Counted from the stretch's first letter, positions 33,696 to 44,890 are shown. The stretch: 64,000 bases of DNA from Methanocella arvoryzae MRE50 (GCF_000063445.1 NC_009464.1:2914001-2978000), one strand, 5' to 3'. Notes: a model not told the origin generated them from the sequence alone. Made by a program: numbers and translations.

Positions 33696-33721
33696 AAAAG
33701 GGAAGCGGCATTGCCGCTTCA
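33691..33721 (-). terminator. Intrinsic-type terminator after the tupA-like gene
   Basis: GAAGCGGCA-T-TGCCGCTTC (33702-33720) is a 9-bp inverted repeat. On the minus strand it is followed by CCCTTTTTTATT (33690-33701). It overlaps the stop codon of the minus-strand gene and the plus-strand gene ends just before it, so it may serve both. Confidence 0.65.
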
Positions 33722-34621
33722 GGGAGTCTGGTTCAGCAGGTCTGCGTAGAACAGCCGCTGGCCATACTGATCTACACCATAGTTGTCGATCATCAGCTGG
33801 GTTTCCTGGCTCTGGAAGTAGTCGATGAGCTTGCTTACCATGGCATAGTTCACGTGGGGGTGCTCCGTCTGGTTGACCGCGATGATGCTGTACTTGTTGA
33901 TCATGTCGGGGTCGTCCTCCATCAGGATTACCAGCGACAGATTCTTCTGGTTCTTCAGGTAAGTGCCCTTGTCGCTGAGCGTGTAGCCCTGCAGCTGATC
34001 GGCCATGCGCAGCGTGTCCGCCATGCCCATGCCGGTCGACTTGTACCAGGTCATGCTGGCGTCGGACGGCTTTTCCAGGCCGGTCTTGTTCCAGAGTTCG
34101 CTCTCTTTGTTTGCGGTGCCGGAGTTGTCGCCTCTCGAGACGAATGTGGACTGGCTTTCATAGATCTTCTTGAAGGCCTCAGTGGCACTGGCGCCCTTGA
34201 TGCCTGCCGGATCGTTCTCCGGGCCCACGATCACGAAGAAGTTGTGGGCAAACTGAGTCCTGTTCCAGCCATGGCCGGCATCCATGAACTTCTGCTCTGC
34301 GGCCGGGCTGTGGACGATCAGGAAGTCGACGTCGCCGGTCTCACCGAGCTTTAAGGCTTCACCGGAACCCCTGGACAGGATCTGAATCTCGACGTTGTTC
34401 TCCTGCTCGAAGGGAGCGAGGACATAGTCGAGGAGGCCCGTGTCGTACACGCTCGTCGTGGTTGCGAGCTTGATAGTCTGCGGGACAGCTGTCGGCGATG
34501 CAATCGGCGTTGCAGTGGCTCCCGGAGTTGGGGTGGGAGTAGTGCAGCCGGATATGGTTACTATCATTGCGATAGCTACTACGGCAATAAATAATACTGC
34601 CATGCGCTTGTTAGAAAACAT
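33719..34621 (-). CDS. tupA: Tungstate/molybdate-binding lipoprotein (TupA/WtpA-like)
   Basis: A 300-residue exported solute-binding protein. Lipobox TISGC (Cys26), followed by a Pro/Thr linker, then the tungstate-family signature ATTTSVYDTGLLDYVLAPFE and the anion-binding Ser/Thr loops (SRGSGEALKLG, SRGDNSGTANKESELW). In this family it feeds tungstate to a TupBC permease/ATPase for tungsten enzymes such as formylmethanofuran dehydrogenase. No tupB or tupC is near, so it is an orphan or its partners are elsewhere. A TATA-like CATTTATATACAT lies at 34635-34647 on the minus strand. Confidence 0.85.
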   Translation of the reverse strand: MFSNKRMAVLFIAVVAIAMIVTISGCTTPTPTPGATATPIASPTAVPQTIKLATTTSVYDTGLLDYVLAPFEQENNVEIQILSRGSGEALKLGETGDVDFLIVHSPAAEQKFMDAGHGWNRTQFAHNFFVIVGPENDPAGIKGASATEAFKKIYESQSTFVSRGDNSGTANKESELWNKTGLEKPSDASMTWYKSTGMGMADTLRMADQLQGYTLSDKGTYLKNQKNLSLVILMEDDPDMINKYSIIAVNQTEHPHVNYAMVSKLIDYFQSQETQLMIDNYGVDQYGQRLFYADLLNQTP

Positions 34622-34748: not shown

Positions 34749-36203
34749 ATGTCGACGAACTCAGGGAGAAAGCTGGCCCTTTTTATTTCTGTAATGCTGC
34801 TGGCTGTCGCCGCCCTGACTCTTGTTCCCGATACGTGGCTCACAGGAGGCAGCCCGGCCTGCCATTCCTGCCATGAGGCGCAAGCGCCGGCCGATCACAT
34901 GCTATTCAGGCAAAACTATCTCGGATATAACTCGCTTTGCTCGTTCGCGCCGTTCAGCACGCTCATACTGGCGACAGCAGGCCTGATTATCTTTCTCACC
35001 ACTTTCCGGTTCAGGTTCGAGCGCTGGGGAAAAGAATACCGCGTCATCGCCTCCTCGGCCTCTTTCGGTATGGCGATCCTGACTCTCGTGCCGTATACCG
35101 GACAGTATACCAACCTGATCGGAGGCCACACGCTCTGCCCGGCAGTTCCGATCAGTACCGGCCTGCTGGCCGGCGCGGGCCTCGTATCGCTTGCGGGCTT
35201 TATGGTCTGCCCGTTCCTGGTGGCCTGGCGGTGCCGGTGCCCGTCGCTGGAGGCTACGCTGGACGTCTGGCAGTCTCCGCACCGCTCGATCAACAGGCTG
35301 ATCAGGCTGCTGGTGACCGGAAAGCTGGACAAGGAAGCCATACGCCGGACATATCGATGTACGCTGTGCAACAAGTGCGGGCTCGCCTGGTTTAACCGGC
35401 AGGCCCGGAAGATCGCCGTTGGCAAGGGTATTGTTCCATCTCACCTGAGCAATATTCGTAGCGCTGTCCAGGCGACCGGTAACCCTTATGGTGTCATCGC
35501 CGACGGAGGGACGATGATCGGCACGAAGTGCGACACTCAAAAGTGTGACACACTCCTGTTCATGGGATGTACAGCCAGGTTCCGGACTCCTGAAATACTG
35601 GAAGCGGCAAGGACTCTCCTTGACCAGAGAGGGATTCAGTACCACAGCCTGCCCGACGAGACCTGCTGTGGCTACACGCTCTATAATCTGGGTGACCTGA
35701 AGGCTGCATACGAGGCGGTCGATAAAAACATAGCCCGCTTCAGGCAGGAAGGCATTCGCCGGATCATCACCGTATGCCCGGGCTGCTACGAGTCGTTCAG
35801 GACTCTCTACCGGGGCAGGGACGGATTTAATCCCGAAATCTTACTGGCAGTCGACCTGCTGAAGGATAAGAAAGTCACAGTTGAGAACGTCATACTGCAC
35901 GAGCCCTGTCACGCGAAAGGCAGGGGAGAAGTAGTCCGCGGCATCCTGATGGGCGCTGGCGACGAGAGCACCGGCGGCTGCTGTGGGGCAGGCGGCGGGC
36001 TCATCTCGTGGGACCGGATGCTCTCCACCTCCCGGGCTATGAAGCTGCAGGAAAACAGTGGCAAGACTGTCATCACCTACTGTCCGCTATGCTATCTGAA
36101 CTTTAAGCGCGCAAACCCGGACCGCGTTCAGGACCTATATATGCTGATGGCAGCGCATGCGGTGCATGCGGCGGATGAGGCACAGACTGCGAAGGAGGAG
36201 TGA
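34749..36203 (+). CDS. Membrane-bound CCG-domain Fe-S oxidoreductase with CxxCH motif (HdrD/DsrK-like)
   Basis: A 484-residue fusion. Residues 1-30 are a membrane anchor, then an exposed haem-type motif C38-HS-C41-H42 (ACHSCHEAQ). About four more membrane segments run to residue 170. From about 195 a cytoplasmic ferredoxin-like CTLCNKC appears, followed by two CCG domains of heterodisulfide reductase type (CCGYTLYNLGD with CPGCYESF; CCGAGGGLISWD with CPLCYLNF). In HdrD/DsrK such domains bind a noncubane [4Fe-4S] cluster that reduces disulfides. It lacks an N-terminal Met-start ribosome site and may be leaderless. The kinase-like gene follows after 4 bp. Confidence 0.72.
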   Translation: MSTNSGRKLALFISVMLLAVAALTLVPDTWLTGGSPACHSCHEAQAPADHMLFRQNYLGYNSLCSFAPFSTLILATAGLIIFLTTFRFRFERWGKEYRVIASSASFGMAILTLVPYTGQYTNLIGGHTLCPAVPISTGLLAGAGLVSLAGFMVCPFLVAWRCRCPSLEATLDVWQSPHRSINRLIRLLVTGKLDKEAIRRTYRCTLCNKCGLAWFNRQARKIAVGKGIVPSHLSNIRSAVQATGNPYGVIADGGTMIGTKCDTQKCDTLLFMGCTARFRTPEILEAARTLLDQRGIQYHSLPDETCCGYTLYNLGDLKAAYEAVDKNIARFRQEGIRRIITVCPGCYESFRTLYRGRDGFNPEILLAVDLLKDKKVTVENVILHEPCHAKGRGEVVRGILMGAGDESTGGCCGAGGGLISWDRMLSTSRAMKLQENSGKTVITYCPLCYLNFKRANPDRVQDLYMLMAAHAVHAADEAQTAKEE

Positions 36204-36207
36204 CCCG

Positions 36208-36894
36208 ATGGATGAAATGCCCTGGCACCCGTTCGGCGATCTCTCCGTCATCCGGAAGTTCCCTAGCAAAAAGAACCACGTATACCTCGTCGATATCGAG
36301 GGGAAGCGGATGATCCTGAAACTGTTCACCAGCGATCGCTGTGCCAACGAGTTCCGCGTCCTCAGCCAGGCCTATGATGTAGGCATCCCTGTGCCAAAGC
36401 CGTATGAGATGCGGGACCGGGCGATCCTGATGGAGTACGTGGTGGGCAGGACTGTCAACGACCTGGTCGAATCAGGATGCCGCAATGATCTTGTGCTGGG
36501 CGTAGCCTCCTGGCTGGCCCGGTTCCACCGGATTTTCATCGACGACGACGGCAAGGTACTGCTCAAGTCGGACGCCATCTTCAAGAACTTCATCGTGGCC
36601 GACCGCATCTACGGCATCGACTTTGAGCTGTCCCGGCCGGGCAATCCTGAAGAAGACGTAGGCGAGGCAATCTCCTTTTTATTAGATACCAATCCCATGT
36701 TCACCGACGAAAAGATCAGGCTGGCCCGCTCCTTCATCGAAAGGTACGAGGACGAGTCGGGCATCAAGCTGAACGACATCGAGGACAGCATAGCCAAGTC
36801 TCTCATCGAGGCCGCCGGCTTCCGCCAGGGCCAGAGGGAACTCCTGCTGAAAAAAGCGAAGGACCTGATCGTGCTCAGGCCCTTCTCAAGATGA
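36208..36894 (+). CDS. Aminoglycoside-phosphotransferase/RIO-like protein kinase
   Basis: About 228 residues with a minimal kinase-like fold. ATP-binding Lys lies in GKRMILKLFTSD, a C-helix Glu in CANEFRVLSQ, the hinge is MEYVVG, the catalytic loop KSDAIFKNFIV, and the metal site GIDFELS stands where DFG is expected. The glycine-rich loop is not evident. The start at ATG 36208 is supported by AAGGAGGAGTGA 8 nt upstream; the longer frame runs through the previous gene's end. It lies 4 bp after the Fe-S oxidoreductase, so the pair is one operon. Substrate unknown. Confidence 0.75.
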   Translation: MDEMPWHPFGDLSVIRKFPSKKNHVYLVDIEGKRMILKLFTSDRCANEFRVLSQAYDVGIPVPKPYEMRDRAILMEYVVGRTVNDLVESGCRNDLVLGVASWLARFHRIFIDDDGKVLLKSDAIFKNFIVADRIYGIDFELSRPGNPEEDVGEAISFLLDTNPMFTDEKIRLARSFIERYEDESGIKLNDIEDSIAKSLIEAAGFRQGQRELLLKKAKDLIVLRPFSR

Positions 36895-36908
36895 CGATAC
36901 CCTGTAGA

Positions 36909-38024
36909 CTATACTCTATAGACTACTATCGGCACTATCATGTCCTCCGGGAGCAATGTGCCATGATTTCCGCCTGATCTGATGTCGTGCACGCCGTGGT
37001 CGGCGTAGACAACTACCACTGTCCCGGGGCAGAGCACAGAGTTGATGCAGCCGATGGCGCTATCCGCGTCTATCAAAGCGGCCACTGCCTGTTCGGACTC
37101 CGGGCCGAAAGCGTGGGCTTTCTTGTCCGTGTCCTTGAAGTGGACGAATATCATGTTGGTGCCGGACAGGTACTGGCGGATTGCCTCTGCCGTAATCTCG
37201 TCGGTTTCACGGGAGTTATGGTTGGTGTCGGGCCGGTAAACAATGTCGTCCCCCAGGAAAACCGGAGAGCTGACTCCGTCTATCCAGACAGCAGACTTAC
37301 CCTGTGCCTGGAGGCGATCGAGGATCGTGTCTGCGTCAGGTATGCCGATTCTAAAGTCCCCTTTCGTGAGGTTGGACGGCTTACCGGTGACCAGGGCTCT
37401 GCTGTTCACCCGTGAGATCGACGGGTATACGCAGGTCGCCTCAATCGGATCTCCCAGCGCCGTAATGTTGTTTATCGTGCCGTTTGCTTTCGCTTTCTGG
37501 TATCTCTCGTAGCCCAACGCATCGACATAGTATAGTATGATCTGGCTGGCACTGCCGTTGATCAGCCCTTCGCTGCCTTCTCCTGTCAGCGAATACATGA
37601 TCGAGGCCGGTATCTCCAGCGACGAGTGTGCAGGCTTATGTGAAGTAGTCACATTGATTCTGCTTGCCGCATACGTTTCCCTGCCATCGTAGATCCTGCC
37701 GTCAGGCAGCACCAGGAAGGGCATGTCGTAATCGTACGCATAGGCTTCCTGTCTCCAGTCATACTGGCGTTCGTCGATCGTTACGGCAGTCACCGGGTAC
37801 AGCCCGTAATAGTACAGGAAGATTTCCAGAGGTATGCCGTTTACCTCGTCGATCGTCTCGTTACAATTCTTCAGGCTGGCGTATACCGACTGGTTGATCG
37901 CCATCGAGGGGTCACCCTGCAGGGTCATGGACCAGTCTTTGGCGCTGGCTGTACAGCCTGAAACTGCAGCTACGATAAAAATTGACATGACGGCAAACGC
38001 CGTCACTGCCATTCCATTTTTCAT
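36909..38024 (-). CDS. Lipoprotein with alkaline-phosphatase-superfamily domain
   Basis: A 371-residue exported protein. The lipobox AAVSGC (Cys24) is followed by an N-terminal beta-rich domain (35-150) like that of the neighbouring exported proteins. A C-terminal domain shows alkaline-phosphatase/phosphodiesterase features: ILYYVDALGYERY, IFVHFKDTDKKAHAFGPES and VVYADHGVHDIRSGGNHGT, with Asp/His pairs for two metals. The likely nucleophile is in the segment YPSISRVNSRALVTGK but is not certain. It starts 1 bp from the stop of the CxxCH protein gene, so it is cotranscribed with it. Substrate unknown. Confidence 0.68.
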   Translation of the reverse strand: MKNGMAVTAFAVMSIFIVAAVSGCTASAKDWSMTLQGDPSMAINQSVYASLKNCNETIDEVNGIPLEIFLYYYGLYPVTAVTIDERQYDWRQEAYAYDYDMPFLVLPDGRIYDGRETYAASRINVTTSHKPAHSSLEIPASIMYSLTGEGSEGLINGSASQIILYYVDALGYERYQKAKANGTINNITALGDPIEATCVYPSISRVNSRALVTGKPSNLTKGDFRIGIPDADTILDRLQAQGKSAVWIDGVSSPVFLGDDIVYRPDTNHNSRETDEITAEAIRQYLSGTNMIFVHFKDTDKKAHAFGPESEQAVAALIDADSAIGCINSVLCPGTVVVVYADHGVHDIRSGGNHGTLLPEDMIVPIVVYRV

Positions 38025-38888
38025 CTATGCCACCACGATGGTCTCCACATCAGGCCAGTTCTGTCTGTTCTTGATCTGCGAAGCGAGCTTAATCTTGCCA
38101 CCGTCCCTTGTCAGGAAGTGGGTGCCCTTGAGAACCTGGTCTCTGCTTATCTCTTCGCCATCTATAGTGACCGTAGTGAAGTCCGTGTACCCTTCTTTCA
38201 GCAGGAGGCTCTTCAGGCTGATACCGGTGACTACATATCCAGTCTCGTACTGATAGTTAGTATCCTGATACGTGTAGCCGATTGTTTTCTTGCTCACCGG
38301 CATGGTCTCTACGCCATTGTCGAGCATCTGCCCGAACGTGATCTTCTTATCGTTCAGCTTCACGGAGTCTCCCCCGTCGCCAACTACGACTATTGTTTTA
38401 ATATTTTTAAGCCACGCTGCAATGGGCATGTTACTGCTCAGGACGCGGACAGAGTACTCCATCGGCACAAATACTGTGTCTTCGGTGATCTCCGACCTGT
38501 TTAGTATCAGCACGAAATCGTCTGCATACATCACCAGGTAGTCGAATTCCGTCACGCTGTGGGCCTTGAGGAAATCCATGACCGGCGTGCCCGTGGATGG
38601 TATTCCTTCTCCGTCCTGGGCTACCAGCGTCTTGACTTCTCTCTGCTTCAGTTTGAAGATGTCGGCCACTGGCACGAACTCATCAGCATGTGTATCGCCG
38701 GTGAGCATAATCGTGCCATTGACGTTGACATCCGGAGCCACGACGCTGCCATGTCCTTCATGGCAGTCGCCGCAGTCCGACTCAGGCTGTTGCATAGCCG
38801 TGGTGACCGCGTAAGTCCCGATGGCCGCAACCAGCAGGCCTACTACCAGGCCTGCTATGAGAAATTTATAAACCTTCTCCATCGGCAT
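38025..38888 (-). CDS. Membrane-anchored CxxCH protein with SUOX-like domain(s)
   Basis: A 287-residue exported protein. Residues 6-32 are a single membrane anchor, then C39-GD-C42-H43 (SDCGDCHEGHG), the motif of covalently bound haem c. The remainder seems to consist of two repeats of a beta-rich fold (FDYLVMYADDFVLILNRSEI and TDFTTVTIDGEEISRDQVL mark equivalent places). This resembles the molybdopterin-binding (SUOX) domain of the upstream neighbour without the cofactor cysteine. It lies 4 bp after 38893-39789 and 0 bp before the phosphatase-like gene. Start ATG 38888 or 38882. Confidence 0.65.
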   Translation of the reverse strand: MPMEKVYKFLIAGLVVGLLVAAIGTYAVTTAMQQPESDCGDCHEGHGSVVAPDVNVNGTIMLTGDTHADEFVPVADIFKLKQREVKTLVAQDGEGIPSTGTPVMDFLKAHSVTEFDYLVMYADDFVLILNRSEITEDTVFVPMEYSVRVLSSNMPIAAWLKNIKTIVVVGDGGDSVKLNDKKITFGQMLDNGVETMPVSKKTIGYTYQDTNYQYETGYVVTGISLKSLLLKEGYTDFTTVTIDGEEISRDQVLKGTHFLTRDGGKIKLASQIKNRQNWPDVETIVVA

Positions 38889-38892
38889 TCAC

Positions 38893-39789
38893 TCACACGA
38901 TCTTAATCGTAACAAGGTCGCTGACTCTGGTGCCGGAAGGCTGGTCCGCCACGTAGTTCTTCAGGCTGCCATCTTCACCGATCGTGATCAGCGCGTTCGG
39001 GTCTGCCCGGATGTCTGCTAAGCTGATGCTCTTGTTGTAGCCGTCCTTTCCGGTGAAGACTGCCTCGAGGGCGCCGCTCTGGATGGCTGCGCTGTCCAGC
39101 AGGGCATTCAGCGACGGGCCGGAAATGGCTACAGTTTCATTGCTCTTCTTGTCCACGTAGGACGAGCTGACCTGCGGCAGGGCCCTGAGGTCGTCCAGCG
39201 AGAGGTACAGCTTGTTGTCCGTCAGGCCGGTAACTGAGAGTGCCGGCTCTGCTGCCGAACCCTTGATGATCTCGATCTTGGCGGGCATCTTCATCCACAT
39301 GTTGTTGGTCTCGTTGGGGACGACGATGATGATGGAGTTCTTGTCATTGATGTTGGGCTTCATGACCGTACCGTTCTTCTTGAACGCTACGATCGACTTC
39401 TCCAGCTGCTCGGAGGTGTAGACCAGGTTATACCCGTCTGACGCGGCGATCTTGTAGGAAATCTCGCCTTCAGGCAGGCCTGCCTTAGCTACGATGGACG
39501 GCAGCGGCACGCCGATGTAGTCGCCGATCGATTCGGTGCCTACCGAGTTAACCGTGTATATGCCGAGAAGCTCTTTGAATTCCATCGCTTTCATGTCTTC
39601 ATAGGTTACGGTGACCGGAGAGGTCGTGCCTCCGGTGATCTCAATGCTGAAGTCCATCGTGTCGGGCAGCCCGGATTTCAGGCCGCCTGCATTGTCCGCG
39701 GTGCCGGACGAGGTGCAGCCAGACAGGGCTGCGGCTGCAACTAGTACTAATACAACCGTTACAATCGTCGATACTCTATAACTTATCAT
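38893..39789 (-). CDS. Lipoprotein with SUOX-like (oxidoreductase molybdopterin-binding-type) domains
   Basis: A 298-residue exported lipoprotein. Lipobox AALSGC (Cys25), then two domains. The first resembles the sulfite-oxidase-type pterin-binding fold: VTYEDMKAMEFKEL, YIGVPLPSIVAKAG, AASDGYNLVYTSEQL. The second repeats the pattern (LSLDDLRALPQVSS, ISGPSLNALLDSA, TGKDGYNKSISLADI). The molybdenum-ligating Cys of true enzymes is not seen, so it is more likely a binding protein than a catalyst. First gene of a three-gene operon encoding exported proteins, downstream of the ECF transporter genes on the same strand. Confidence 0.68.
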   Translation of the reverse strand: MISYRVSTIVTVVLVLVAAAALSGCTSSGTADNAGGLKSGLPDTMDFSIEITGGTTSPVTVTYEDMKAMEFKELLGIYTVNSVGTESIGDYIGVPLPSIVAKAGLPEGEISYKIAASDGYNLVYTSEQLEKSIVAFKKNGTVMKPNINDKNSIIIVVPNETNNMWMKMPAKIEIIKGSAAEPALSVTGLTDNKLYLSLDDLRALPQVSSSYVDKKSNETVAISGPSLNALLDSAAIQSGALEAVFTGKDGYNKSISLADIRADPNALITIGEDGSLKNYVADQPSGTRVSDLVTIKIV

Positions 39790-39909
39790 AAGTAAACACC
39801 CTCAAACCGTTCTGATTTAAGTGCCTAATCAGTATTACAATAAGTGATAATTAAAGGTATTGTAACTATTATACGTAACATGTAAATTACAAGTGGTTGA
39901 CTAACCTGA

Positions 39910-40722
39910 CTAATTGTTGTATATATCGATATCGGGTAACGGCAAGAAACCAGTAAACCGGTTGATCAACAGAAGTAGAAAAACGCCGACGCTGAGCAGT
40001 ATGATCGCTAAATCTACAGCTCTGAAGTGGCTTGTCCGGATAAACGTGCGATGAGGCCTGCACCCGAAGGCCCGGCCTTCCATGGAGATCGCAAGCACAT
40101 CCACTTTCCCCAGCGCCGAAACGATGAGCGGCTGCAGCGTATACTTTGCCGATCTGAAGACGGCTCCCAGCCCTCCGCCTTCTATGTCCAGCCCTCTGGT
40201 CAGCTGAGCCTGGCGTACAGTGCCTGCCTCCGACTCGAACACCGGGATAAACCTGAGAGCCGTCACCAGCATGAACCCGAACCGGTAGGGCACTCCCGCC
40301 CGGATCAGCGAATAGGCCAGCTCTCCCGGGTCCGTGGTCAGGACAAAGATGGCGCTGGCAAAGATAATGCTGGCGAACCGCAGGGCCACCACCAGCCCGA
40401 TGGTAATGCCCATCTCTGTCACATCTATGTTGATTAGACAGAGCGGCACCGAAAAGTAAACTGTTCCACCGGGGTTGAACAGCACCTGGATGATGAATAA
40501 CAATGCTATGAATGACAGCATGAACTTCGAGATCAGCACGGAGAATGGGGCAGCCGAGCGGGTCATGGCGGCAATTATCATTAGCAGTAGAAGGCTCGCA
40601 AACTGCATGGCTATGCTGTCGAACATAAATGTGGCAAAGCTGAACACAGCCAGCACCGCCAGCTTGGTCAGGGGGTTAAGCCTGTGGATGATCGACTTGC
40701 CAGCAACGTACCTGATCTTCAC
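39910..40722 (-). CDS. ecfT: Energy-coupling factor transporter transmembrane protein EcfT
   Basis: A 270-residue membrane protein of the CbiQ/EcfT family. Five or so membrane segments precede a cytoplasmic helical part carrying the coupling motifs (QLTRGLDIEG and ISMEGRAFGCRP, the second matching the usual EARGFG form). It contacts the ATPases and the S component. GTG start overlapping the stop of the ATPase gene (GTGA). The ATPase and S genes are immediately upstream. Confidence 0.85.
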   Translation of the reverse strand: MKIRYVAGKSIIHRLNPLTKLAVLAVFSFATFMFDSIAMQFASLLLLMIIAAMTRSAAPFSVLISKFMLSFIALLFIIQVLFNPGGTVYFSVPLCLINIDVTEMGITIGLVVALRFASIIFASAIFVLTTDPGELAYSLIRAGVPYRFGFMLVTALRFIPVFESEAGTVRQAQLTRGLDIEGGGLGAVFRSAKYTLQPLIVSALGKVDVLAISMEGRAFGCRPHRTFIRTSHFRAVDLAIILLSVGVFLLLLINRFTGFLPLPDIDIYNN

Positions 40723-42239
40723 GCGAAGCCTCCCGGGAGGTAGTCTGTGAAACCCAGTTTCGAAAGCGCCCTGAAAGCCTCACCAGGGCGGTCATTCACG
40801 ATGATCTGCCCCTCGTTGAAAAACACTATCCGATCGCAGCACTGGTATGCAACGTCTGCGTCATGGGTGACGAAGATGACTGTCTTACCCTCGGCGCTGA
40901 GCTCGCGCAGGTCCTTCGTCATCCGGGCTGCGTTAACCAGATCCTGGCCAACCAGCGGCTCGTCCAGGATCAGCACCTGCGGATCATAGGGCAGCACCGA
41001 AGACAGGTTCAGCCGTCGCTTCTCGCCAAAACTCAGCTTCAGCGGATGTCTGTCCGAGTAGCGGGAGAGATCGTATCTGTCGAGAACTGCATTTACCGCG
41101 ATGCGCTCTTTTTCTGCCGGGTAGCCGAAATTCCTGCAGGCAAAGCCTGCTTCAGCCCTCACCGTGCGCTCGAAGATCTGGTGATTCGGGTTCTGGAACA
41201 CGAAGCCTGCATAACGGGAAATCTCGGTCACCTTCAGCCGTCTCGTATCCCTGCCCATCACCTTGACAGTGCCCTTTCCCGGCTTGTTGATGCCGGTGAT
41301 ATGCCCGAGAAAAGTCGTCTTGCCAGAGCCGTTTCGGCCCATGATGCCTACGATCTCCCCGCGGCGGGCGGCGAAATCGACGCCCCGGAGCACTTCACGG
41401 CCATCGTACCCGAAATGTAAGCCTTCGACCCGGATTGTCTCCTCCTGCCTGTCAGTGGCGTCGACACGTTTACCAGAAGCCTGCGCCGGCGTACCAGCCC
41501 TGATGCGATCGATGTACCTGCGGGCAGTGGCCTCCGGTTCGCCGTCAAAGATCACCTTCCCCCGCTCCATGACGATCATTCGATCAGCGAGGCCTGCCAC
41601 CCGGTCCAGCTTATGCTCGATCACAAGGATGGTCATGTTCTCCCGCTCTTTCAGCCTCCGTATAGCGTGAAAAATGTCTGTGGTCGCCTCCGGATCGAGG
41701 CTGGAAGTAGGCTCGTCGAGGATGAGGACGCCCGGGCTCATGGCCAGCATTGAAGCAATGGCTACCCTTTGCTTTTCCCCTCCGGATAGCTCGAATATGC
41801 AATTGTTCCTCAGGTGAGACGCTTCTGCCATGGCCAGCGATGTCTCCGTCCTGCGCCTGACCTCCTCCGGAGGCAGTCCGAGGTTCTCCGGGCCAAACGC
41901 CACTTCGTCTTCAACTGTCAGGGTGCATAGCTGGGCTTCCGGATCCTGCTGCACGAGGCCGACCATAGTCGCCATCTCTGCCAGGGGCACATCTCTGGTA
42001 TTTTTCCCGCATACCTCTGCCAGGCCTTCCATTCGGCCATCTATCACGTGGGGTATAAAACCGCCGATGGCCAGGGCGAGAGTTGACTTACCGCAGCCGG
42101 AGGGGCCGGTAATGACGACGACTTCACCATGTCTTATGTCGAGGCTGACATCGTCGATCACCGGGCTGTCCGATTCGGGGAACCAGAACTTCAGATTTTT
42201 AAGCCTGATCACTGAAGCCTGCTGAGGTAAGTCTGCCAT
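40719..42239 (-). CDS. Energy-coupling factor ABC ATPase, two domains fused (EcfA-EcfA')
   Basis: A 506-residue protein holding both ATPases of an ECF transporter. Domain 1: Walker A GPSGCGKST, signature LSGGEKQRV, Walker B VLILDEPTSSLDP. Domain 2: GRNGSGKTT, a modified signature LSFGEKRRL, and VLILDEPLVGQD. The second signature has Phe in place of the second conserved residue, common in EcfA'. The start is taken at ATG 42239, 5 bp after the S-component stop; the frame extends to 42281 into the previous gene. Powers uptake through EcfT and the S subunit. Confidence 0.88.
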   Translation of the reverse strand: MADLPQQASVIRLKNLKFWFPESDSPVIDDVSLDIRHGEVVVITGPSGCGKSTLALAIGGFIPHVIDGRMEGLAEVCGKNTRDVPLAEMATMVGLVQQDPEAQLCTLTVEDEVAFGPENLGLPPEEVRRRTETSLAMAEASHLRNNCIFELSGGEKQRVAIASMLAMSPGVLILDEPTSSLDPEATTDIFHAIRRLKERENMTILVIEHKLDRVAGLADRMIVMERGKVIFDGEPEATARRYIDRIRAGTPAQASGKRVDATDRQEETIRVEGLHFGYDGREVLRGVDFAARRGEIVGIMGRNGSGKTTFLGHITGINKPGKGTVKVMGRDTRRLKVTEISRYAGFVFQNPNHQIFERTVRAEAGFACRNFGYPAEKERIAVNAVLDRYDLSRYSDRHPLKLSFGEKRRLNLSSVLPYDPQVLILDEPLVGQDLVNAARMTKDLRELSAEGKTVIFVTHDADVAYQCCDRIVFFNEGQIIVNDRPGEAFRALSKLGFTDYLPGGFA

Positions 42240-42244
42240 AAGGC

Positions 42245-43285
42245 TCAGTACACCCTGATCGCTTTGACCTTGTCTACCCACATGCCACCGGCATAGCCTT
42301 TCGCCACCAGCCAGATCCTCTCGGGGTCCGACTGCACGGTCAGGATCAGGCTATCATTATTGGCGACGTCCGACAGGTTGAAGGTCTGGTAGTAGCCGTC
42401 AGAGCCCACTATATCTATTTTAGTCGCAGTATCCTTGACCCGGGCATCCTCAAGCAGGTAGCTGACTGGCAGGCCTGTGTAGTCCTGTGCCGGGAAATGC
42501 TTGTACTGGCCGTCGAGCTTGGCATTGATGGTGATGTAGTGGCTTACCAGCGAGGGCACGTGGTAGTCTTTGTCATAGGCTATGCTGCCAGTCACCATCA
42601 CCGTCATCGGGTCATCCCTCATCTGCACCAGCGCGAAGTAGTAGATTGCCGAGAAGGCGATGAGCAGCAGGCAGATCAGGGCAAAAGCCTTGGGCAGGCT
42701 GAACGTCCAGGCTTTTTTCTCCTTCTTTTCCTCCGCTCGCCTGATAATGCCGGCATCCCTGAGGTTATCCATGATACCCCCGGTGAAGAACCCGGCGAAG
42801 ACCACGCCCGAGATGATCGAAAGCAGGCTGACTGCCCCGAACAGGAAGATATTGTCATACGCCTGGTAAGCGATCTGGAACGTGAGCACGTTAGCGAACG
42901 ATCCCAGGCCGCCAGCAATCATGTACGCCAGCCCTTTGTACTTGCGGAAAGGCCAGTAGCCCAGCTCGGTGAAGATGCCTTCCACGAGTGACAGGATTAT
43001 GACAAATACACCCAGCCTGCTGCCGCTGATGAACTCCACGAAGCCCTTGATGAGCCCTCCCATCGCTCCGGCGCCCTTTTTACCCGTTATGGCGATGATC
43101 AGCACCATCCACAGGATGTGCAGGCCTCCGACAATCTGGCCTGCGCCATAAGGTACTCCCATGATGTGGTTGACCAGGTTGCCCAGGTAGCCGACATAGG
43201 TAGACATGACTCCGCCGAGGGCCGCCAGCACGGCGATCACCAGCAGATCACGGGTAGAATAATAATACCTGTTCTTCTTTTCCAT
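42245..43285 (-). CDS. ECF S component (YkoE-like) with C-terminal SUOX-like exported domain
   Basis: About 346 residues. Residues 1-195 are a six-helix substrate-specific membrane subunit resembling the YkoE class (STRDLLVIAVLAALGGVMSTYVG, GGLIKGFVEFISGSRLGV, FFTGGIMDNLRDAGI). A Lys/Glu-rich link and one more membrane helix follow. Then comes an exported tail (about 235-346) with a GSDGYYQTFNLSDV segment like those of the downstream lipoproteins. This tail is unusual for an S subunit. The start is set at ATG 43285; upstream frame to 43378 contains the promoter (TATA-like CCTTTATATTAAG, about 43349-43362). Confidence 0.75.
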   Translation of the reverse strand: MEKKNRYYYSTRDLLVIAVLAALGGVMSTYVGYLGNLVNHIMGVPYGAGQIVGGLHILWMVLIIAITGKKGAGAMGGLIKGFVEFISGSRLGVFVIILSLVEGIFTELGYWPFRKYKGLAYMIAGGLGSFANVLTFQIAYQAYDNIFLFGAVSLLSIISGVVFAGFFTGGIMDNLRDAGIIRRAEEKKEKKAWTFSLPKAFALICLLLIAFSAIYYFALVQMRDDPMTVMVTGSIAYDKDYHVPSLVSHYITINAKLDGQYKHFPAQDYTGLPVSYLLEDARVKDTATKIDIVGSDGYYQTFNLSDVANNDSLILTVQSDPERIWLVAKGYAGGMWVDKVKAIRVY

Positions 43286-43376
43286 CGGTATCACGCAATC
43301 GATTATAGTTAACAATATCTTTTTATGCAAATACCTATACCAATAACGCTTAATATAAAGGTTTTGAGGGGCTGAC

Positions 43377-44150
43377 ATGATTGCAGAGCAGTGGGTGCTG
43401 GCCGCAGGGGCGGCAATATTCGTAGCAACAATAATCGCTATCCGATTTCACCTCGATCGGCTCGTTCCCTGGATCGCTTCATCCGGCTGCGCTGCAATCC
43501 TCCTCGCCCTTCTCTTCCGACTTATTGCTACGGGACGAGTTCCCTGGGCATCGCTATCCGAGTCGGCTGCACTGCTGGCGCTAATTGTCAGCGTGGCGGC
43601 TGTAATATCCATACTAAAGGATATGCCCCGGCCAATGAGCTATTTCCTCGTTATTGTGGCCGCTACGCTCGCCGCATTCTCCGCGGCGTCGTGGGAAGCT
43701 CCCGGTACTCTGCCGGTCTCATTGCAAAGCGAGTGGCTGCTTGTCCACGTTCCTATCGCCATTGTTTCCTACGGATTGTTCGCATGCTCAGCTGCAGCAT
43801 CAGCCGCATACCTTTACTACATGGTGAAACGCCCCTCCGAGTCTGCCAAAACCGCCCGGCTTGACAGGCTTTCGATAACCTGTATTACCGTCGGACTGCT
43901 CTTGCTGGTAATAGCCATAATCATGGGCTCGTTATGGGCAAAAGCCGCGTGGGGATCGTACTGGTCATGGGATCCCAAAGAAACCTGGTCGCTGATCACG
44001 GCCATTGTCTACGGGGCCTACCTCGTGCTAAGACGGGCCGGCATGAAGGGCGAAGAGGCCGCATACGTTTCCCTCATCGGTTTCGGGTGTGTCATCTTCA
44101 CCTACCTCGGCGTCTCGTACATTATCCCCGGACTCCATAGCTATGCATAG
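43377..44150 (+). CDS. ccsA: CcsA/CcmC-type haem-handling protein (cytochrome c assembly)
   Basis: A 257-residue polytopic protein. The haem-binding tryptophan-rich WWD motif WGSYWSWDPKETWSL is at residues 192-206, with axial-type histidines at H124 (VHVPIAIVSYG) and H254 (LHSYA), as in CcsA. Eight or so membrane helices. Such proteins export haem and present it for covalent attachment to CxxCH proteins. No CcsB, CcmE or CcmF is next to it. It is transcribed away from the ECF operon from a shared 90-bp promoter region. Two CxxCH proteins are encoded within 9 kb. Confidence 0.9.
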   Translation: MIAEQWVLAAGAAIFVATIIAIRFHLDRLVPWIASSGCAAILLALLFRLIATGRVPWASLSESAALLALIVSVAAVISILKDMPRPMSYFLVIVAATLAAFSAASWEAPGTLPVSLQSEWLLVHVPIAIVSYGLFACSAAASAAYLYYMVKRPSESAKTARLDRLSITCITVGLLLLVIAIIMGSLWAKAAWGSYWSWDPKETWSLITAIVYGAYLVLRRAGMKGEEAAYVSLIGFGCVIFTYLGVSYIIPGLHSYA

Positions 44151-44191: not shown

Positions 44192-44890
44192 ATGCGTCTC
44201 CTCTGTTTTTCAGACATCCACGGCAACGTAGCCGCAGTAAAACGCCTGATCAAAGACGTCAGAGCCCGTCGCGCCCGTTACGACGCCGTAGTCGTCGCAG
44301 GAGACCTGACCAACTTCTCGGTCACCCGCGACCAGCAGGAATCCCAGGAAGCCCTGGATACCATCCTGCAGTTGCTGACTGCCGAGTTCGGCAACGTCAT
44401 GTATGTCCCCGGTAACCGGGACTATCTCGGCCGGGGCAAAAAGCGCCTGTCGTTAACCCACTACAAGGGCATGATGATCGAAGAAGGCAAGAAATACTAC
44501 CTCGGCCCCAGGCTGCCAATCACGACCACGCCGGAGCTGTCGGATAAAAACACGATCCTGATCCAGCACAGCAACGTCGTCTACGAAGGCGGCTTCAAGC
44601 GCAGGTCCGTTGTCTGCAAAGACGCCCTCCTCCACATCGTCGGCCACACCCACACGGGCATCGTCTCCGGCAACTACCTTAACACCGGCTTCCTCTACCG
44701 GGACGACTCCAACGGGGCAGAGCCTATGATGGGCGGGTACTTCGAAGTGGAAATCACCAACAGGGCGGTCACCTACACTTTCTTCCCCCTCGGGCCGATC
44801 AAGCGCAGGGACCTGAAGTGCGCGGGCTTCAAAGGGTCCATGTACTCGCCGCACGGGTATGCGTTCCCGGTTAAACTGGCTGTAAAATAG
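44192..44890 (+). CDS. Calcineurin-like metallophosphoesterase
   Basis: A 232-residue soluble enzyme. Di-metal motifs in order: FSDIHGN (residues 6-12), VVAGDL, VPGNRDY, IQHSN and GHTHTG. A short family of archaeal phosphoesterases shares these. Substrate unknown. The ATG follows a GTGAT weak ribosome site. It is 41 bp after ccsA on the same strand, so cotranscription is likely. Confidence 0.85.
   Translation: MRLLCFSDIHGNVAAVKRLIKDVRARRARYDAVVVAGDLTNFSVTRDQQESQEALDTILQLLTAEFGNVMYVPGNRDYLGRGKKRLSLTHYKGMMIEEGKKYYLGPRLPITTTPELSDKNTILIQHSNVVYEGGFKRRSVVCKDALLHIVGHTHTGIVSGNYLNTGFLYRDDSNGAEPMMGGYFEVEITNRAVTYTFFPLGPIKRRDLKCAGFKGSMYSPHGYAFPVKLAVK

Follow-up and report, generated by a model that had tools for sequence, protein, structure and literature searches.

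Gene content and organization of the locus

We analyzed a window of 64,000 nt from Methanocella arvoryzae MRE50 (NC_009464.1:2914001-2978000), whose 3.18 Mb genome is a single contig. All open reading frames named in an earlier sequence-only reading were found where it had placed them. Six genes run in one direction on the minus strand, encoding an ECF S subunit (42245..43378; PF09819, E 1.8e-21), fused ECF ATPases A-A' (40719..42281; TIGR04520/TIGR04521 in two matched stretches), a CbiQ-family T subunit (39910..40722; PF02361, E 4.4e-33), a lipoprotein with two SUOX-like domains (38893..39789; PF00174, E 2.7e-11), a membrane-anchored monohaem c-type (CxxCH) protein (38025..38888), and an exported lipoprotein phosphoesterase of the alkaline phosphatase/NPP superfamily (36909..38024; PF01663, type I phosphodiesterase, E 1.7e-9). 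The flanking genes are on the plus strand. On one side, facing away from this block, lie CcsA, a c-type haem maturation protein divergent from S (43377..44150; PF01578, E 4.3e-43; TIGR03144), and a cytosolic calcineurin-like phosphoesterase (44192..44890; PF00149); on the other lie a small cytoplasmic APH/Bud32-like kinase (36157..36894; PF01636; its real start is perhaps at ~36208) and a membrane HdrD-like protein with CCG domains and an N-terminal CxxCH (34749..36203; PF02754, E 4.9e-19).

These profile matches bear out the earlier assignment of an ECF transporter, of the SUOX-like and phosphatase-superfamily lipoproteins, and of the opposite-strand CcsA, phosphoesterase and HdrD-like protein. 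The kinase was missing from that gene set, although it is linked to the block across archaea. All parts of an ECF importer are present by Pfam/NCBIfam matches and structure comparison (a dedicated S, a T, and two ATPase domains), and the order S-A-T was kept in most complete loci of our survey. There was no match to PF07155, another ECF S family. Next to the HdrD-like gene and convergent with it is a gene for a TupA-like tungstate-binding lipoprotein (33719..34621, minus strand), which matched NF041772 at E 4e-59 with 200 of 400 bits, under the model's curated cut-off. TupB and TupC were not seen directly alongside, and the gene is possibly related in function to the block.

Structure of the S subunit and the exported SUOX-like domains

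In an AlphaFold2 model of the S subunit (pLDDT 81), a YkoE-type membrane part (residues ~39-220) is followed by an exported C-terminal SUOX-like domain (residues 254-377). Using VIA-align, the membrane part aligned to YkoE (5EDL) with Z 23.6 and rmsd 2.5 over 180 aligned residues, and the tail aligned to sulfite dehydrogenase with Z 15.3 and to PruR with Z 13.3, confirming the resemblance of this tail to SUOX that had been seen by sequence inspection. S probably has its conserved start near 43285 rather than at 43378, because the initial ~31 residues show no conservation and were modeled with low confidence.

The AlphaFold2 model of the 38893..39789 lipoprotein matched PruR (7rkb) with Z 15.9, and also matched SUOX enzymes. 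The protein at 38025..38888 had been read as a membrane-anchored CxxCH protein. It is one, but it also carries two SUOX-like domains that had been missed; a sequence-profile search of the PDB returned only chance matches for it, whereas profile-profile comparison to the lipoprotein (hhalign) identified both domains at 96.9%. The exported domains therefore share the fold of SUOX and of the pterin-binding PruR, and the non-SUOX fold that would have refuted the initial proposal was not obtained. By eye it seemed plausible that the NPP-type phosphoesterase begins with a SUOX-like domain, an idea we rejected because hhalign gave values of only 2% and 17%.

None of the SUOX-like domains in the window contains a molybdenum-ligand cysteine: the S tail has no cysteine at all, the lipoprotein has only that of its lipobox, and the CxxCH protein has only its haem-binding pair. 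Nor does any SUOX protein that we examined carry an RR (Tat) pair in its signal region. From these two absences we infer that the SUOX-like proteins look like binders exported empty, and not Tat-exported holoenzymes. For the lipoprotein we propose a role as an extracellular pterin- or cofactor-binding protein, for which there are no binding data.

Phosphoesterases, kinase, and redox components

In the exported phosphoesterase (36909..38024), D168, D300, H304, D342, H343, and H354 were invariant across eight homologues and position 204 was always S or T. The protein thus meets the metal-ligand and nucleophile test for the NPP/alkaline phosphatase superfamily, and a PDB profile search matched it to 2gsn (E 2.1e-6). 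Exported phosphoesterases of two unrelated superfamilies accompany S in different lineages, NPP-like in Methanocella and Chloroflexi and calcineurin-like in Asgard archaea and Methanofastidiosum. Counted with a profile built on the catalytic domain alone, which excludes double-SUOX proteins, 17 Asgard loci with a full-length S have, directly upstream of it, an exported phosphoesterase of the calcineurin-like type joined to a SUOX-like domain. A double SUOX-like protein occupies the position directly upstream of a full-length S in another eight. The calcineurin-like protein of the window itself (44192..44890) has no evident signal peptide; its counterpart at L010:8337-9041 is 58.97% identical and also sits beside CcsA.

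The kinase family has invariant K55, D139, and D155 (17 homologues), and its gene was found near S in 21 loci, the window included, though in none of the Chloroflexi loci. We propose that it re-phosphorylates an imported pterin. Since two phosphoesterase superfamilies appear in one role, together with a linked kinase whose catalytic residues are conserved, the combination suggests by inference that nucleotide and phosphate are stripped outside the cell and phosphate is restored inside.

Both the CxxCH motif and a later H-G were invariant in eight homologues of the 38025..38888 protein. CcsA holds the same position in two related loci (L008 and L010). In L010 and L012 the HdrD-like gene borders the block, and in one Chloroflexi locus (L028) it lies inside the S operon. 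We propose that the HdrD-like protein supplies electrons to the surface. The Asgard loci encode haem-type proteins of other kinds, EB_dh-like and b561-like. Together, the c-type haem and HdrD-like proteins of Methanocella and one Chloroflexi locus and the haem-type proteins of Asgard archaea suggest a surface reduction step, again by inference.

Conservation and distribution

Among 294 genomes searched within the phylum, S was found only in Methanocellaceae. The gene set recurs in two other genomes of this family (L008/L012 in one, L010 in the other) at 47-69% protein identity. Both relatives share CcsA, the CxxCH protein, the phosphoesterase, and the HdrD-like protein, and L010 also has the kinase and the cytosolic phosphoesterase. 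Because it is conserved in these two genomes, the block is more than a chance neighborhood. Two Methanocellaceae genomes also have a second S gene with a SUOX-like tail (L011:9221-11453 and L013:2948-5948) without its own A and T, followed by fmdE (PF02663) and a SUOX lipoprotein.

Scanning a single genome per species with a profile yielded 19 loci, two of them in a Methanocella MAG already seen. The others belong to Methanofastidiosa, Hermod-, Hod-, Heimdall- and Thorarchaeota, and Chloroflexi. Every complete S protein among the 19 loci has retained its membrane domain together with its SUOX-like tail. A later Asgard survey additionally recovered S proteins that consist of the membrane domain alone, beside which SUOX-like proteins are encoded separately. 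The Chloroflexi loci are arranged S-A-T-CxxCH-phosphoesterase, with SUOX lipoproteins nearby. The absence of such co-occurrence, named at the outset as grounds for refutation, was therefore not met. The expected association with CcsA and CxxCH proteins is lineage-dependent: both accompany S in Methanocellaceae and CxxCH does so in Chloroflexi, but neither was present in the Asgard or Methanofastidiosa loci. In six Asgard loci (L092-L096 and L099), genes that appear by eye to encode MoxR-type ATPases follow the ECF or moa/moe genes.

Link to molybdenum and tungsten cofactor metabolism

Each of the seven Chloroflexi loci has a Moco/Tuco riboswitch (RF01055) ahead of S, with scores of 55.8-76.7 bits where the gathering score is 36. 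Hairpin P3 is missing from six of the seven, a form that has been linked to the tungsten cofactor (PMC2408646). Near the archaeal window locus we found only sub-threshold riboswitch matches. The same 2008 paper reported P3-lacking RNAs before "sulphite oxidase" genes of Syntrophomonas wolfei as an anomaly (PMC2408646); those genes may encode SUOX-like capture proteins of the kind found here.

Gene order in Asgard archaea points to the same pathway. In L092 and L093, moaC, moaA, moaD, moaE, moeA, a moaB-type gene, and a further moeA come directly after the ECF genes and share their strand; in L094 and L095 moaD and moaB-type genes come next, and in L096 an AOR gene adjoins. The fmdE genes beside the second S genes of two Methanocellaceae add to this line of evidence. 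AOR (tungstopterin-type) was present in all 20 genomes with the system that we inspected, while MoaC, MoaE, and MoeA were each absent from 16 and all three were absent from 15. MoaC was found in none of 43 Asgard genomes with a full-length S, compared to 80 of 152 others (Fisher p 2.9e-12; 195 genomes, uncorrected for relatedness), and in six of 41 with a partial or membrane-only S. Most of the Asgard and Chloroflexi genomes are MAGs. In five Asgard genomes (G315, G347, G349, G400, and G449), all with MoaC, we observed a match to the S tail only, in SUOX-like frames of ~200-360 residues.

The M. arvoryzae genome carries MoaC, MoaE, and MoeA, so import here would be salvage and not a necessity. 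One genome of the same family (G019), listed as 100% complete, has MoaE, MoeA, AOR, and PF00384 enzymes, and MoaC was not found in it; this may be a methanogen dependent on import, or an assembly gap. The link to Moco/Tuco rests on four independent lines (the riboswitch, the moa/moe operon, missing synthesis in genomes with AOR, and the SUOX/PruR folds) and is strong, if indirect. Of the two substrates suggested by the sequence-only reading, "perhaps a pterin or haem", it supports the pterin and not the haem.

Alternative explanations

Haem uptake, in which haem would be captured, reduced, imported by the ECF transporter, and attached to CxxCH proteins through CcsA, draws on the adjoining CcsA and CxxCH genes and on the existence of ECF haem importers (PMC7299338). 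It would also supply an external source to a genome in which we found no ferrochelatase and no AhbD match reaching the cut-off, in agreement with the reported lack of AhbABCD in Methanocellales (PMC8351635). With CcsA and CxxCH proteins present, the source of haem in M. arvoryzae remains puzzling. We nonetheless consider haem a very improbable substrate because the Asgard and Methanofastidiosa versions have neither CxxCH nor CcsA; moreover, the Chloroflexi versions are under a Moco riboswitch, operon partners are moa/moe genes, and the phosphoesterase and kinase would have no obvious role. Haem is more likely the cofactor of the CxxCH protein. Import of thiamine or HMP, as in YkoE, would account for the membrane fold of S, and a phosphatase and kinase acting on thiamine phosphates would fit the logic of the locus, the kinase being weakly similar to ThiK. 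However, when YkoE contact residues were mapped by alignment onto 20 S proteins, Trp49, which stacks on the thiamine pyrimidine, corresponded to an invariant His (20/20) and Asp131 to an invariant Gln, and Glu77 stayed Glu. Mutation of this Trp abolished thiamine-induced quenching in YkoE (PMC5037267). Because of these substitutions a thiamine substrate seems extremely unlikely, and we note further that the riboswitch is of the Moco/Tuco type, that no thiamine (TPP) riboswitch matched upstream of the Chloroflexi S genes, and that S is anticorrelated with MoaC.

A metal oxyanion (tungstate or molybdate) could be imported in place of a pterin, given that molybdate transporters, too, are found under Moco riboswitch control (PMC2408646) and that a TupA-like gene adjoins the block. 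Yet the 15 of 20 genomes without MoaC, MoaE, and MoeA could not use the oxyanion by a known route, and SUOX-type capture domains, a phosphoesterase, and a kinase would be superfluous, leaving little room for this explanation. Finally, the SUOX-like proteins could form a true Mo/W surface oxidoreductase beside an ECF transporter that is merely a nearby vitamin importer. The SUOX fold, the cytochrome and HdrD-like partners, and a fuller SUOX protein with a b561-like membrane protein in Asgard L094 and L095 agree with such an enzyme, but the proteins examined lack the conserved Mo-ligand cysteine and, in their signal regions, the RR pair, and SUOX-like domains are fused to S itself and to phosphoesterases. 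We find this scarcely credible.

Proposed function

We consider it very likely that the block is a salvage importer of a molybdopterin-type cofactor (Tuco/Moco, or a metal-free or dephosphorylated pterin), with transport, binding, and enzyme activity all inferred. In the proposed scheme, the cofactor would be bound outside the cell by the SUOX-like lipoproteins and by the SUOX-like domains that the CxxCH protein and S carry, and the exported phosphoesterase would remove its nucleotide, its phosphate, or both. The HdrD-like membrane protein may feed the c-type haem protein, which would reduce the pterin-dithiolene or keep it reduced. S, with T and the double ATPase, would then import the pterin, and the cytoplasmic kinase would restore the phosphate, so that enzymes of the AOR type and formylmethanofuran dehydrogenase can use it. 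We infer capture, the sequence of events, what the phosphoesterase and kinase do, and the reduction step.

As for the form imported, missing MoaE argues against cyclic pyranopterin monophosphate. Missing MoeA would suggest import of a metal-loaded cofactor or an unrecognized insertase, a question that stays open. Several points weigh against a cofactor importer: genomes without MoeA leave metal insertion unexplained; PruR, the nearest solved Cys-less pterin binder, is thought too small for Moco (PMC13259868); and the Chloroflexi loci lack the kinase, as those of Asgard archaea and Methanofastidiosa lack CxxCH proteins and CcsA. We can only tentatively suggest, as a possibility that may well not hold, that the block represents the first importer to carry a pterin cofactor intact and with its metal bound, and that Asgard archaea, Methanofastidiosa, and some Chloroflexi take the ready-made tungsten/molybdenum cofactor from other microbes and use it in many tungsten enzymes, having lost pterin synthesis and metal insertion.

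Many Asgard genomes carry 5-11 AOR-type genes without detectable cofactor synthesis. If true, import would explain how these relatives of the eukaryotic ancestor run such genes, and would turn the tungsten cofactor into a resource shared within anoxic communities. A defined S-T-A set with capture proteins, a phosphoesterase, and a kinase makes cofactor uptake directly testable.

Comparison with known systems

Moco is considered too unstable for free movement. We found no description of a prokaryotic Moco importer in the literature searched, which left out subscription papers and preprints, so that an earlier description is possible. We found only a suggestion made for T11SS proteins (PMC12282271); according to a 2022 paper, exogenous Moco had been seen to be taken up only in C. 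elegans (PMC9793310), and how pterins cross bacterial membranes is unknown according to a 2026 review (PMC13259868). Most likely, then, the block is an ECF vitamin-type importer, its import mechanism inferred, for a substrate without a known prokaryotic importer in that literature.

Its parts resemble several described systems. The YkoEDC thiamine/HMP importer of B. subtilis (5EDL) has the same S membrane fold, ECF ATPases, and CbiQ-type T, whereas the S described here has an exported SUOX-like domain, His for Trp49, and a Moco/Tuco context. Sulfite oxidase and sulfite dehydrogenase (2blf, 2xts) share the fold of the exported domains, but those of the block lack the conserved Mo-ligand cysteine, are not evident Tat substrates, and are likely binders. 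The periplasmic pterin binder PruR (7rkb, 7kos) is likewise an exported SUOX fold without the Mo-binding cysteine; PruR signals to DcpA (PMC13259868), while in the block two such domains sit on a lipoprotein, and others on S and phosphoesterases, beside a transporter. The haem importer LhaSTA of S. lugdunensis (PMC7299338) offers a precedent for a dedicated ECF S-T-A set for a large cofactor. It is iron/Fur-regulated and belongs to the isd locus, whereas the block described here is associated with a Moco/Tuco riboswitch, SUOX-like parts, and moa/moe partners.
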